A stretch of DNA of 64,000 nucleotides from Microbacterium paraoxydans (lineage in GTDB: Bacteria > Actinomycetota > Actinomycetes > Actinomycetales > Microbacteriaceae), in NCBI RefSeq assembly GCF_020524545.1, contig NZ_JAIVLG010000006.1:1-64000 (forward strand), in the 5' to 3' direction. Position numbers and translations under genes: made by a program. Below the pieces are notes generated by a model. The model saw nothing but the letters and a program-made list of their open reading frames with translations, did not search any database and was not told the DNA's origin. Shown here piece by piece: positions 59,515 through 64,000 of this stretch; the first letter of the stretch is position 1, and each line of letters begins with the position of its first letter.

Positions 59515-59751
59515 ATGACAACGACCATCAAGGTGAACGATGACCTCCGCGACCGGTTGAAGGAGCAGGCGGCACGTGACGGTCTCACTCTCGGAGCGCA
59601 TCTCGCTCACCTTGCCGACGCAGAGGATCGTCGTTGGAGATTGCAGTCGTTGAAGCGAGCGATCGAACGGACGGCGACGGCGGAGACGGAATCGCATGCC
59701 GCAGAGGCTGCCGAATGGGAGCGGGCCGACCTGACCGACGCGACCGCATGA
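59515..59751 (+). CDS. Ribbon-helix-helix antitoxin (MazE-like partner)
   Basis: A 78-residue protein: MTTTIKVNDDLRDRLKEQAARDG is a typical RHH beta strand and helix A. The C-terminal ~30 residues are Glu/Ala-rich and likely unstructured until bound to toxin. Its stop overlaps the toxin ATG (ATGA), the usual order of type II systems. The family match is by motif; a transcription-factor-only role is less likely given its position. Confidence 0.85.
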   Translation: MTTTIKVNDDLRDRLKEQAARDGLTLGAHLAHLADAEDRRWRLQSLKRAIERTATAETESHAAEAAEWERADLTDATA

Positions 59752-60095
59752 GTTCCTCCTCAGCGCTCGCACCGGGACGAGTCGCCTGGGCCGCACTCGA
59801 ACCAGTGCGAGGGAGGGAGCAGGGGGGACATCGTCCCGTTCTCGTCGTGGCCTCGGCCGGATATCTGGATGCCGTGACCACGCTGGCCATCGTGCTGCCG
59901 ATCACGACGACCGACCGAGGCTGGCCGAATCACGTCGTCGTGGAGGGGCCGAGCGGACTCGATCGTCCGTCGTGGATCATGACCGAGCAGCCTCGCACGC
60001 TTTCGCGTGATCGCCTCACCGGGACGGCAGGTGAGGTCACGGAGGAATGCCTGGCGTCGGTGCGCGCCTGGCTGGGGGACTTTCTCGACCTCTGA
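59748..60095 (+). CDS. MazF/PemK-type toxin endoribonuclease
   Basis: A 115-residue protein with the PemK/MazF fold: GRVAWAALEPVRGREQGGHRPVLVVA (the RGxEQxG/KxRPVLV start), VVLPITTTDRGWPNHV (PxT/S stretch) and SWIMTEQPRTLSRDRL (conserved Q-x-R-x3-RL). Such toxins cut mRNA at short motifs and are held inactive by the upstream antitoxin. ATG 59748 overlaps the antitoxin stop. It looks intact. Confidence 0.93.
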   Translation: MSSSSALAPGRVAWAALEPVRGREQGGHRPVLVVASAGYLDAVTTLAIVLPITTTDRGWPNHVVVEGPSGLDRPSWIMTEQPRTLSRDRLTGTAGEVTEECLASVRAWLGDFLDL

Positions 60096-60356
60096 GCAAA
60101 GCTGCCTGAACCCCGGACATCCCGAGGGCCCCGACGTCCCCAGATCGTCGAGGCCCCTTGAGGGTGTCGCGGCGGCGTGCCGCGTCATCCTCGAGTAGAT
60201 GGTGTCCGTGTCGTGATTCGCGCTCCCCAGCGCGCGTGATTCCCCAGATCCGACTGCGCCTCCCTCGCGCCTCTCCCTTCGAGGCCCTTCGCATGGCACC
60301 TTCCGAAGAACAGGAGCACGCGGCATCCGTTCTGATACACCGATTTGAGAAAAAGG
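60096..60356. other. 261-bp gene-free stretch between mazF and the CHAT gene end
   Basis: Both neighbouring genes end here (convergent). I see no promoter, tRNA or strong stem-loop, only short GC-rich inversions such as GCGGCGTGCCGC. Small frames on both strands have no start signal or domain and look like chance. Confidence 0.4.
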
Positions 60357-62807
60357 TCAGAATCCGTCGCCGTGGCACTGGAACGGGGCGGTGTGGCCGG
60401 TGTCGAGGGCGGCCCGCCTGAGGGCGTCCGCGGGTGCAGCGCCGGCGGAAAGGCCGGTGTGGAGGGCACTGAGCAGTTCACCGGCGACCTCATCCGGGAC
60501 CGCCACCGGAGCGGCGATGACGCAGTCGGCCCCCGCATGCAGCCAGACGCGGGTCATGCCCAACGCCTCTTCGCCCCAGCGCACCGAGGAACGGCCGAGC
60601 TCGCACGCCGACAGGATCACCGTCGCGGGGACACGGGGGATCAGGTCGACGTCGTAGCCGAAGAGGGCGCCGTCGGCGAGCTCGAAACCCGAGAACAGCG
60701 GATTGTCCACCGCGTGCTTGCCGTGCGCCGCGATGTGCAGCACGTCGGTGTGCGCAGCGAGTTCGGTGACGGCTGCGACCGTCGCTTCCGTTCCCTCCAG
60801 GATGTCCGGCATCAGGTCTGCGCCGCGCCAGGCTGCGGCGGCCCGGGCCACCTCGTCTCCCGCCCGAGCGACCCGTGGGCCGCTGGCGAACCCGATCGAC
60901 GTCGGAGGCGAGCCGACACGGACGCGCCCGCCCAGCAGGCGGGACACCGAGGTCGCGAGCGTGAACGGCACGCCGATCATGCCCGGCAGCATCGCCCAGG
61001 GCACCCCGGCGAGAGCGCCCGGTGCGGTGATCGCCAGTCGATCCGCCGGAGGAGCGGCCCGGAGCAAGGGCGCGAGCAACTCCGCATCGAGGAGGGCCAG
61101 CCGAGACGCGAGAACCCGCTCCGTCACCGCCCCCATCCGTCCGCCGCGAGTCAGGGCGGCCATGTCGAGGTCGGCGCGGAGGCCGTCGAGCGCCGTACTC
61201 ACGCGACTCCAGGAGAGGTCGACGACGGTGGCTCCGGAGGATGCCACGACGATCCCGTGGAGTGCGGAGCCCGTGAACACGTACGACAGCACCGCGGTTC
61301 CCGGGGCGAGTCGCGCCGTCGCCTCCGCGAGGCCGAGTCGTTCGCGGGTGCCACCGGGCCCGGTCGTGGCCCACTGGCGCTCTCGCATCCGGTCGCGAAG
61401 GGCCTGCACCCGGGCATCCCTCGTCCAGTCGGCACCCGCGAGCTCGGCGCGCAGCATCCGCAGCTCTGCCAGATCCACGGCGAGGGATTCGTCATGCGGA
61501 GGTCGGACGGGAGCGACTTGCTGGCTGAGATGTCGTGCGCGCTCCGACCACTCGAACAGGATCTCCGGATCCTTCTGGCGTGCTGCGGCCGAGAGCCCCG
61601 CGAACATCAGATCGCTGCCGTGCATGGCGACCGATGCCTGCAGGTCGAGCGCACCGAACGACTGCTGCCAGGTGGTGAGGAGGTCGAGTCCGGCCGCGGC
61701 AGCACGCAGCGCCTCCCGGTCGCGTCCGGCCGAGGCAGCGCGGGCGGCGCGCACCTCCTGGGCGCGCAGGCGGAGGGGGGTCGGAGCGTTCTCGTCGAGC
61801 CGGGGCAGGCGTCCGCGACCGTCTCGCCGCGCGCTCAGCCGCAGACCGGTCGCCTCGGTGCGGAATCCCCAATGGTCGAGAGCTCTCGCGACGCGGTCGA
61901 ACTCCTCCGCGTCGATCGCGCGATGCGGTCTGGCGCGCTGCCCTGCCTCCAGTCGCACGGCGTCAGCGCGGGCCGCCCACCCGTGGTTGCCGAGCGCCGC
62001 GAAGCGCCGGGACGCCGTCCGAGCCGCTCGTTCCGCGGCGGCGGGGTCATGGCGCAGGAGCGACCGGGCGAGGTGGAACTCGGCCTCGCCTCGGGTCTGC
62101 CTCATCCGCTGCGCCCCGAACTCGGCGGCGACCTGGCCGAGCAGCGTCTCCGCCTCGGTGGTGAGTCCCGCATCGCGGAGCACCTCGGCGCGGTCGAGGT
62201 CGCTGATCGCCGCGGCGAGGTCGCTGATCGCGGCGAGCTTCGGACGCGAACGGGTCATCAGCGTGAGGGCGGTGACCAGGTCGCCGCCGAGGAGTGCCGC
62301 GTAGCCGAGGTTGTGCCGTGCCTCGGCGAGCGGACCCTCGTCGTCGTTCGCCTCGTACACCACGATCGCGCGACGCAGATCCTCGATGCAGGCCTCGAGC
62401 TCTCGCTGCTGCATCCGCACCACCGAGCGGTTCATCAGGCAGTTCGCGAGCTCGGTCGTCTCGTCGCCGATCGCCGTGAGCGTGTCGATCGCTCGGGTGA
62501 GCATGGCTTCCGCGTCGGTCAGGCTTCCGCCGTGCATGAGGAGCGTGCCGCGCTGGCCGCTGAGGACGGCGATCGTCTCGGGACGCAGCCCTGAGCGGCC
62601 GAGCGCCTCCCGGCACAGCTGCTCGGCCGCGGCGGGCTGCCCCTTCTGGGCGAGGACGTAGGCGATCGTGCCGTCGATCCGTGCGCGCAGGTCGGGGTCG
62701 TCGGTGCGCGCCGCGGCGGTGTCCAGCGCGCGCCGCGCCTGGGTGAACCTCCTCGCGTTCGCCGCCTCGACGCCGCGACGGTGCAACTCGGTGGCGGACA
62801 GGGGCAT
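60357..62807 (-). CDS. TPR-CHAT caspase-like protease
   Basis: An 816-residue protein. The N-terminal ~450 residues are helical tetratricopeptide-like repeats (AEQLCREALGRSGL, EARHNLGYAALLGGDL). The C-terminal ~300 residues form a CHAT (caspase-fold) domain. The catalytic His is near residue 695 (LHIAAHGKH) and Cys near 735 (ILSACELGRS), both kept, so it is probably active. TPR-CHAT proteins cut partner proteins in defence and signalling systems. It lies 206 bp after a subtilase gene, on the same strand. No other partner is visible. Residue numbers are counted from the stop. Confidence 0.92.
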   Translation of the reverse strand: MPLSATELHRRGVEAANARRFTQARRALDTAAARTDDPDLRARIDGTIAYVLAQKGQPAAAEQLCREALGRSGLRPETIAVLSGQRGTLLMHGGSLTDAEAMLTRAIDTLTAIGDETTELANCLMNRSVVRMQQRELEACIEDLRRAIVVYEANDDEGPLAEARHNLGYAALLGGDLVTALTLMTRSRPKLAAISDLAAAISDLDRAEVLRDAGLTTEAETLLGQVAAEFGAQRMRQTRGEAEFHLARSLLRHDPAAAERAARTASRRFAALGNHGWAARADAVRLEAGQRARPHRAIDAEEFDRVARALDHWGFRTEATGLRLSARRDGRGRLPRLDENAPTPLRLRAQEVRAARAASAGRDREALRAAAAGLDLLTTWQQSFGALDLQASVAMHGSDLMFAGLSAAARQKDPEILFEWSERARHLSQQVAPVRPPHDESLAVDLAELRMLRAELAGADWTRDARVQALRDRMRERQWATTGPGGTRERLGLAEATARLAPGTAVLSYVFTGSALHGIVVASSGATVVDLSWSRVSTALDGLRADLDMAALTRGGRMGAVTERVLASRLALLDAELLAPLLRAAPPADRLAITAPGALAGVPWAMLPGMIGVPFTLATSVSRLLGGRVRVGSPPTSIGFASGPRVARAGDEVARAAAAWRGADLMPDILEGTEATVAAVTELAAHTDVLHIAAHGKHAVDNPLFSGFELADGALFGYDVDLIPRVPATVILSACELGRSSVRWGEEALGMTRVWLHAGADCVIAAPVAVPDEVAGELLSALHTGLSAGAAPADALRRAALDTGHTAPFQCHGDGF

Positions 62808-62832
62808 CCCCCCAGGATGCCGTGCCCGCGGT

Positions 62833-62965
62833 CATCCCGCTACGGAGGTCGGGAGAGCTGGCCGCACATCTGTCCCAGATGTCGGAAGAAAAGACGGATG
62901 TCGGGCGTGCGGCGGCGTGTCGCTCCGCCATCCGTGAATCGCTCCGACCTCCGTATGGCGGGATG
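62833..62965. repeat. Intergenic nested palindrome, family A, copy 2
   Basis: The outer arms CATCCCGCTACGGAGGTCGG (62833-62852) and 62944-62965 pair with one 2-nt insertion. Its core 62894-62936 is homologous, in reverse, to 40838-40879: CACGGATG, then ACACGCCGC, then CCCGACATCCGT. It fills most of the gap between the subtilase stop and the CHAT start. Confidence 0.75.
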
Positions 62966-63013
62966 GTGCGCGGGATGGTGCGCGGGGCGGGGCGGCGCAG
63001 GGTGGGCCGGGCG

Positions 63014-64000
63014 TCAGCCCGGGTCGACCGGGGTCGGTAGGGACTTCAGGACGGCGGCGACCGCTTTCGCGGCGGCGCTCGGGGTGACGCCCCCGAGCGG
63101 CACGGTGCCCAGCTGGGCGGCGATGCGTCCCGCGACGTACGGCGCCGAGAACGAGGTTCCGCTCCACACCGCGAACCCACCCCGGTAGTCGTCGGGGTCG
63201 ATCGTCTCGCGGCGGAGGCCGTCGACGTCCGCGCGGGAGGTCGCCTGGGTGCCGCCGACGAACGCGGGCGAGGTGCTGACCACGGCCGCGCCCGGCGCAT
63301 AGGCCTGCACCCACGGGCCGATGTTCGAGAACAGCGCCACCGATCGCGCGGAAGGGTTGAGCGCACCGACCGACACGAGCGGTGCGTTCCGGTCCGTGGG
63401 GATGCCGTTGTCCGCGCCCGGCCAGGGCCACAGCGACGCGGGGAAGGAAGGCCGGTCGATCGCGTCGTTGCCGGCGGAGCAGACGACCACGCAACCGAGC
63501 TCCCTGGCCTTGGCGAGCAGCTGGAACAGGGTGAGGCTGAACAGCCCGTCGGTCGGCGTCTCGTGGTAGTAGCTGAGCGAGAGGTTGAGGACATCGATCG
63601 GGAAGCCGGTCTTCGGGTCGTCCCGGTGCCGGCTGAGGAGCGTGACGACCTGTGCGATCGTCTCCAGGAGCGTGCTCTCGTCGATCACCCCGAGCGCACC
63701 GGCCACGCGGACCGACAGGATGTCGGCATCCGGCGCGGTCTGGCGCACGAGTCCCGCGATGAAGGTGCCGTGGCCGGCGACGGCGTCGATCTCGCCGTCG
63801 AGCTGCCCGTACAGGTCGGGGTAGCGTTCCGGGTCGGCATCGTCCGTGAGGCCCACGGGCACGCCGTCGAGGTCGACCTTCCGGGTGACGATATCGGCGG
63901 GAAGCCAGTCATGCTCCCCGCATCCGGTGTCGAGCACCGCGACGACGGGTCGACGCCCGCGTTTCGGGGCGGCACCGCGCACGGGCGCCGGACCCAGCCA
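63014..64000 (-). CDS. S8 subtilase-family serine protease, 5' end beyond the window
   Basis: The frame is open to the window edge, so at least 328 residues are seen and the N-terminus is missing. The triad is complete: Asp in VVAVLDTGCGEHD, His in VAGHGTFIAGLV and Ser in FAVWSGTSFSAPYVAG, with Asn of the oxyanion hole in VVVCSAGNDAID. No C-terminal extra domain or membrane helix follows. Whether it has a signal peptide cannot be seen. It lies immediately upstream of the TPR-CHAT gene. Two proteases in a row is noteworthy. Confidence 0.93.
   Translation of the reverse strand, partial: WLGPAPVRGAAPKRGRRPVVAVLDTGCGEHDWLPADIVTRKVDLDGVPVGLTDDADPERYPDLYGQLDGEIDAVAGHGTFIAGLVRQTAPDADILSVRVAGALGVIDESTLLETIAQVVTLLSRHRDDPKTGFPIDVLNLSLSYYHETPTDGLFSLTLFQLLAKARELGCVVVCSAGNDAIDRPSFPASLWPWPGADNGIPTDRNAPLVSVGALNPSARSVALFSNIGPWVQAYAPGAAVVSTSPAFVGGTQATSRADVDGLRRETIDPDDYRGGFAVWSGTSFSAPYVAGRIAAQLGTVPLGGVTPSAAAKAVAAVLKSLPTPVDPG

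Follow-up and report, generated by a model that had tools for sequence, protein, structure and literature searches.

The closest described counterparts of the locus reported here are the ECF54 neighbourhood and the type III-E CRISPR systems. In the accessible part of a review (PMC8999054), a carboxypeptidase, a subtilase and CHAT proteins are placed in the neighbourhood of ECF54, a group of extracytoplasmic function (ECF) sigma factors for which a Geodermatophilus member is named and which might be regulated through proteolysis, with no anti-sigma factor involved. In type III-E systems, according to the accessible part of a second paper (PMC10028731), the protease Csx29, which joins tetratricopeptide repeats (TPRs) to a CHAT domain, cuts the inhibitor of an ECF sigma factor. 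Here we describe a locus at the end of a 64,000-nucleotide stretch of DNA from Microbacterium paraoxydans (assembly GCF_020524545.1, contig NZ_JAIVLG010000006.1, positions 1 to 64,000; hereafter the window), where a TPR-CHAT protease lies beside a subtilase of the S8 family. The subtilase carries a tandem peptide array whose unit varies by species and covaries with residues in the TPR region of the CHAT protein. Judged from this sequence pattern, we consider it probable that the TPR-CHAT protease physically docks on the repeats.

The TPR-CHAT protease (816 residues, catalytic His695 and Cys735) is encoded at 60357..62807 on the minus strand and the subtilase at 63014..64000 on the same strand. 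The subtilase gene runs off the window, which holds its catalytic domain, and extends to contig base 64588, giving 524 residues in full. Upstream of it, past the window, are genes for a small soluble protein (contig ~64639-65094) and an ECF sigma factor (~65091-65717; TIGR02937, 65.5 bits, cut-off 42.9), which overlap by ~4 bases. A preliminary description of the window had reported two adjacent same-strand proteases with intact catalytic residues, which Pfam, alignment and structural models confirm, and had suspected a missing partner upstream of the window, where the sigma factor and the small protein now supply it. Among the genes it had suggested looking for beyond position 64000, the sigma factor is there; the flanking reading frames scanned hold no gasdermin.

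By neighbourhood the module fits an ECF54-like assignment. Compared through the accessible description in PMC8999054, both have an ECF sigma factor with a subtilase and a CHAT protein, and in ECF54 a further neighbour is named a carboxypeptidase. As this neighbourhood is already published, the quartet is a known kind of locus and the pairing of the two proteases is not new. The preliminary expectation of a new two-protease cascade therefore stands only in part: covariation backs an interaction and a cascade is plausible, but the gene neighbourhood was known. The partner at our locus also differs from the carboxypeptidase-named one, showing a weak regulatory-like domain and no peptidase family (CarboxypepD_reg is the only match, in 13 of 40 members at E <=0.01; the window member reaches 18.9 bits against a cut-off of 32.3). 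An array, TPR covariation, a shared motif and an RNA are unmentioned in the accessible text of the review. A literature search, whose coverage left out most subscription papers, found nothing on the repeats or a TPR code, and a recognition code made of the peptide array and TPR covariation looks new.

The type III-E Craspase (the TPR-CHAT protease Csx29, Csx30 and CASP-sigma) shares with the window locus a TPR-CHAT architecture and an ECF sigma factor in one locus, and by analogy Csx29 is the closest working parallel. The window locus differs in having a subtilase instead, with partner recognition seemingly via tandem peptides; no Cas family appears among the flanking open reading frames (ORFs) scanned, a search confined to the neighbourhood, and no CRISPR-like direct repeats occur in a 20 kb stretch. 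The subtilase itself resembles subtilisin zymogens (pro-subtilisin E, Tk-SP, PCSK9) in having an I9-type prodomain followed by an S8 catalytic domain, and differs from them in its disordered linker with species-specific tandem repeats and in that the window protein shows no export signal. Mycosins of the type VII secretion system are likewise actinobacterial S8 proteases, a partial match: the window subtilase scores 65.8 bits against a cut-off of 278.75 and has no membrane segment by hydropathy.

A tandem array in the linker of the subtilase

The full-length subtilase matches Peptidase_S8 with 76 bits, and residues D220, H273, N374 and S479, read in the window protein, are retained in all 91 aligned relatives of the repeat class. 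Crude motif patterns recovered the S8 triad in 49 of 53 loci and the CHAT catalytic pattern in 35 of 61, and we relied on alignments instead. The AlphaFold model of the subtilase (mean pLDDT 74) has a beta-alpha-beta, I9-like prodomain (residues ~41-145), a low-confidence linker (148-199) and the catalytic domain; its fold matches in the PDB include unprocessed pro-subtilisins as well as PCSK9, at modest TM-scores (0.36-0.43 over the query). Three copies of NPFTRT (residues 152-171, contig ~64076-64135, ~76-135 bases beyond the window end) lie inside this low-confidence, disordered linker, and the array thus sits where subtilisins normally part prodomain and enzyme. A DNA pattern search of the window genome found the exact NPFTRT unit in this array only, so the subtilase appears to be the sole partner with that motif. 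None of the four quartet proteins has a 19-residue stretch with hydropathy >1.6, and the subtilase zymogen looks cytosolic. One divergent-orientation locus (L060) encodes an S8 protein with an apparent twin-arginine-like export signal by eye, unlike the window type.

Tandem repeats of this kind are present in every subtilase of an S8-anchored set, the best 80 of 418 loci from named genomes, which are mostly Microbacterium with Nocardioides, Cellulomonas, Klenkia and others. Units span 5-8 residues in about 2-9 copies, and nearly all arrays are closely C-terminal to a conserved LDHV-like motif (missing in L169 and matched elsewhere in L132 and L139). The weakest arrays (L173, L156 and L162) have ~2 copies and scores of 7-8, where shuffled sequences mostly gave 4-6 and once 8. 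Unit sequence varies by species: NPFTRT in the window genome and NPFSRT, NPFHST, NPYGST, NPLHDS, NPVWDG, NPFTG and more elsewhere, with 57 spellings among 97 arrays, some of which are the same unit in another register. Two arrays (L152 and L227) were set by hand to the register NPYPRT; L169 (TPSPYH) allows two registers, of which the one used is a mismatch at unit residue 3 and the other would fit the pairing described below. A subtilase from another lineage (L062) has four spaced GHKPM motifs in place of a perfect tandem array.

Copies within an array have near-identical amino acids and differing codons. Pooled synonymous and nonsynonymous differences (pS 0.49, pN 0.011) give a pN/pS of 0.022, in which pN is biased downwards because the array finder favours identical units (edge units were excluded). 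Nonsynonymous differences are absent from 79 of the 97 arrays, and only 71 of 806 unit pairs share one DNA sequence. We compared codons of orthologous copies between arrays with different units and found no signal over all such pairs (466/500 permutations as high) or at catalytic identity >=0.84 (347/500). The closest 8 pairs did give a signal (0/500), a hint only, as 7 of the 8 share L104. In L104, within the NPFSRT clade, and in L119/L120, three copies changed residue together while copy-specific synonymous codons were seemingly kept. This pattern suggests, on few independent cases, parallel change rather than re-amplification.

Repeat units covary with TPR residues of the CHAT protein

The CHAT domain is recognized by Pfam with 91 bits, and H695 and C735 are kept in 84 of 84 relatives with sequence there (the other 7 of 91 aligned have gaps). 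The sole TPR match, TPR_2 at residues 121-151, is weak and below cut-off. In the AlphaFold model (mean pLDDT 91, pTM 0.89), a long, TPR-like helical solenoid leads into an alpha/beta domain. A fold search with it returned Csx29 complexes as top PDB matches and then separase, at a low overall TM of ~0.4, followed by the anti-sigma factor DdvA; searching PDB sequences with only the CHAT protein as query found no match. DdvA, a transmembrane anti-sigma factor, ranks 8th and 12th among the PDB fold matches.

Using a tree of 91 loci and independent contrasts, we compared features of the repeat unit with the alignable columns of the S8 domain, prodomain, CHAT protein, small protein and sigma factor (3,849 and 4,007 column features compared; family-wise 95% null ~0.44 for unit residue 3). 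The permutations shuffle contrasts on a single tree, itself made from the proteins compared; ties in parsimony were resolved arbitrarily, and Fisher values ignore relatedness. Unit residue 3 and CHAT residue 202 gave rank correlations of 0.72-0.87 for the F/C, F/G and Y/G pairs, against the null of ~0.44. Y occurs with G in 21 of 22 loci and L with V in 3 of 3, and the partner of F is C, S or A in 58 of the 60 having sequence. Each of the two positions changed 13 times, and 10 of these changes share a branch on a tree of 180 branches. Unit charge tracked CHAT 162 most strongly of 764 columns, with 0 of 3,000 permutations as strong, and T at unit residue 4 tracked V at CHAT 129 (0.67/0.77, null 0.42). 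Where R or K stands before the last residue of the unit, CHAT 122 is N in 47 of the 50 having sequence; in other units of at least 6 residues it is R in 24 of 34. Copy number showed no clear covariation, and the signals of unit length and of the last residue were weak or confined to particular clades.

These pairings recurred in unseen loci. We assembled 60 hand-picked regions of lower-identity matches and 29 loci (89 in total), 78 of which had readable arrays and 52 of which were <95% identical to a training protein. The residue-3 rule fitted 51 of 52, with G202 present for 11 of the 12 Y units and for none of the 40 units with another residue. V129 was found with 11 of 13 T units versus 1 of 29 others; among units of at least 6 residues, N122 went with 31 of 33 basic units and R122 with 9 of 10 non-basic ones.

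The positions involved have a regular place in the CHAT model. Helices 118-133, 157-173 and 196-212 contain residues 122, 162 and 202, respectively, each at the 5th-7th residue of its helix, and as we read the predicted structure these would be the first helices of three successive pairs. The Pfam TPR match starts at residue 121 as profile position 1, which puts 122 at position 2 and 129 at position 9. According to the accessible part of PMC1261162, the variable concave positions of TPRs are 2, 5, 9, 12, 13, 33 and 34, and peptide contacts in the HOP TPR are made by positions 2, 5, 6, 9, 12 and 13. The covarying positions are what a peptide lying in the TPR groove would be expected to give.

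Several observations weigh against reading the covariation as docking within a sigma-tied cascade. The link to CHAT 122 is the weakest: its rank correlation is 0.51 but its Pearson correlation 0.34, and a column of the small protein does equally well. On the tree there are 10 gains or losses of R/K in the unit and 15 changes at residue 122, with 5 shared branches, or 2 if 122 is coded as basic or not. For R at unit residue 5, the four highest-ranking columns include neither 122 nor 162. Columns of the S8 domain, sigma factor or small protein also pass the threshold for other unit features, some with higher values; unit length 5 reaches r 1.00 with a non-CHAT column across six loci, and S at unit residue 4 tracks an S8 column (0.81/0.79). 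We have taken such S8, sigma and small-protein columns as presumable clade marks. Exceptions at residue 202 are F with G (L106/L197), Y with S (L050, L213) and F with N (L148/L248), and the distant L052 (unit VPFGSG) has V there, contrary to the F rule; at residue 122 they are a basic unit with R (L241) and non-basic units with N (L202/L203, L124). S8 proteins from other lineages of the wider family mostly have no tandem array, and the small protein has no recognised anti-sigma domain, which the preliminary description had also suggested looking for. Covariation of sequences is, moreover, an indication of contact or shared constraint, of neither cleavage nor direction.

The strong conservation of the S8 catalytic region also makes self-processing of the array possible. 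The repeats could then be an element of subtilase self-cleavage or self-assembly only, with an indirect TPR covariation. Subtilisins cut off their own prodomain at the prodomain-catalytic junction, and the array lies at this removal site. For unit residue 3, however, a TPR residue outranks every other column of the proteins compared, and the covarying positions agree with the known peptide-binding face; we regard a role in self-cleavage alone as very unlikely.

A proposed docking model for two proteases

We propose that the TPR groove of the CHAT protease would bind the tandem repeats between prodomain and catalytic domain of the subtilase. The repeats could load several CHAT molecules per subtilase and switch CHAT on by proximity. 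Docking at the linker would place the CHAT active site nearby, so that CHAT would most likely cut or free the linker and activate the subtilase, which might then act on the small protein or the sigma factor. Once free, the sigma factor would drive transcription of the operon that encodes it and, in many Microbacterium, of a small structured RNA immediately beyond that operon. We lean somewhat towards this model as a whole, in which the TPR-CHAT protease docks on the linker of a subtilase zymogen in a sigma-tied cascade. For CHAT acting on the subtilase linker, with its presumed direction, we see the balance as nearly even, a shade on the doubtful side. More tentative is a species-specific docking code in which the TPR groove would read the tandem hexapeptide at about two residues per TPR step and both sides co-change.

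The order of events may also be reversed. The subtilase and its array would then be a scaffold that gathers and activates CHAT, and CHAT would release the sigma factor by cutting the small protein or some other target, by analogy with Csx29 and Csx30. The fold matches of the CHAT model, with Csx29 complexes and separase the best despite the low TM, are in line with this order, as is the cleavage of an ECF sigma inhibitor by a TPR-CHAT protease in type III-E systems (accessible part of PMC10028731), and several copies of one docking peptide suit clustering. Yet the array sits at the junction of prodomain and catalytic domain, and the catalytic residues are intact in all 91 repeat-class subtilases, which are therefore probably more than scaffolds. 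We judge the reversed order rather unlikely.

If true, docking of CHAT on the subtilase linker would provide a code that joins two unrelated protease classes in one bacterial switch and would explain an odd protein repeat. It would offer dozens of natural peptide-receptor pairs from which TPR specificity could be read and redesigned. ECF54 would go from a genome-context guess to a testable mechanism with a named binding site, a promoter-like motif and an RNA product.

Conservation of the gene set

The pairing of the two proteases, which the preliminary description had proposed to look for in relatives, is conserved. All four genes are present in 76 of the 80 S8-anchored loci (3 of the remaining 4 are on short contigs), and 75 of these 76 complete loci have the order sigma-small-S8-CHAT on one strand. 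We also examined a CHAT-anchored set of 61 loci, made up of the window locus and 60 regions picked by hand, mostly by score, with matches on very short contigs omitted. Here 44 loci have all four genes, in variable order and strand; within the fetched stretch, the rest comprise 8 with S8 and CHAT only, 7 without S8, 1 without sigma and 1 with CHAT alone. Two loci from Klenkia (Geodermatophilaceae) have the quartet. In a same-genus relative (L037, 4733-8810), ~4 kb separates S8 from CHAT.

Among loci having both genes, 47 of 51 and 74 of 78 place the small gene directly 3' of the sigma gene in the same orientation. This arrangement fits a partner of the sigma factor, and we infer that the sigma factor would be released through the small protein. 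It speaks against a further possibility, that the proteases degrade the sigma factor itself and so hold the system inactive with no need of an anti-sigma factor, the proposal made for ECF54 in the accessible text of PMC8999054. Degradation of the sigma factor would suit a small protein that matches only a carboxypeptidase regulatory-like domain; we think it unlikely.

Distribution of the CHAT protein is patchy. It occurs in 139 of 247 genomes of the genus Microbacterium, in 6 of 150 Microbacteriaceae genomes drawn across genera (the window genome counted, with a single CHAT match), and class-wide in 114 of 296 genomes, where weaker matches are perhaps other TPR-CHAT proteins. Such patchiness would suit a phage-defence or cell-death module, the role raised in the preliminary description, and CHAT and subtilase proteins occur in such systems. 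Against this, no gasdermin is found among the flanking ORFs scanned, which are ordinary genes, and no fifth protein neighbour is conserved (the widest cluster covers 28 of 139 loci, 5 of them outside the Microbacterium-like set). PADLOC had no match for CHAT, and for the subtilase only weak ones (subtilase/IetS). We see no evidence of a function in defence, which we consider quite unlikely.

A promoter-like motif and a candidate structured RNA

Of 129 loci, 48 have a two-part motif upstream of the sigma gene, against 6 for the best shuffled dyad. In the form GTATC-N17-CTCCT it has 109 sites in 71 of 141 loci searched, many of them close relatives, compared with 2 (reversed), 3 and 1 (wrong spacing) for controls; 48 of these sites precede the sigma gene and 5 precede S8. 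A slightly looser pattern falls within 250 nt 3' of CHAT in 50 of 139 loci. At the Microbacterium paraoxydans locus the motif stands upstream of the sigma gene (contig 65743-65770) and again, as TGTATC-N17-CTCCT, just 3' of the CHAT stop codon (60312..60339, minus strand). We infer that the sigma factor uses this motif. A wider regulon was sought and set aside: with <=1 mismatch the motif is rarer genome-wide than its backwards control (31 vs 56), so only three exact genome sites were considered, one of which (C5:56006) is probably chance. In five loci (L149, L154 and L155 from Nocardioides, L045, and L047, read by eye), the post-CHAT motif precedes a protein of ~100 residues, which might be another output of the sigma factor; three such proteins were scanned and gave one weak Pfam match, below cut-off.

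After the post-CHAT motif of the window lies a candidate structured non-coding RNA with TGGGG motifs (60163..60310, minus strand; 147 model positions). Across Microbacterium, RNAs at this place have 2.02 TGGGG per 160 nt versus 0.59 in shuffles, with at least 2 motifs in 35 of 41 loci, a count that leaves out 8 of the original 49 loci, judged by hand to be protein-coding. Their mean folding z is -2.5, and TGGGG is clearly unpaired in predicted folds for 31 of 83 motifs. In the consensus, 12 of 32 pairs keep pairing via two-sided changes in at least one sequence. A covariance model matched 45 of 247 genus genomes, all 45 of them CHAT-positive, and 0 of 108 without CHAT; at the threshold used it had no match in the remaining 94 CHAT-positive genomes. 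A small protein was rejected as an explanation, the longest frames varying in length and sequence across Microbacterium, and an Rfam search with the RNA gave no match. The RNA is within 100 bases of the CHAT match in 40 of the 45 genomes. In five genomes (G441, G314, G445, G550 and G661) it is 1.5-10 kb from CHAT on the same contig, and genes may therefore have been inserted between them.

The flanking ORFs scanned encode a sugar operon (SIS, ROK, PfkB, aldolase, DeoR), a solute-binding protein, ABC and MFS transporters, ArsR-/GntR-like regulators and a methyltransferase. NTPase genes, which had been suggested as neighbours, are represented among these ORFs by ATPases of the ABC-transporter type only, with AAA_21/22/15 side matches. 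A PemK/MazF-like toxin gene (window 59634-60095, plus strand) is convergent to the structured RNA.

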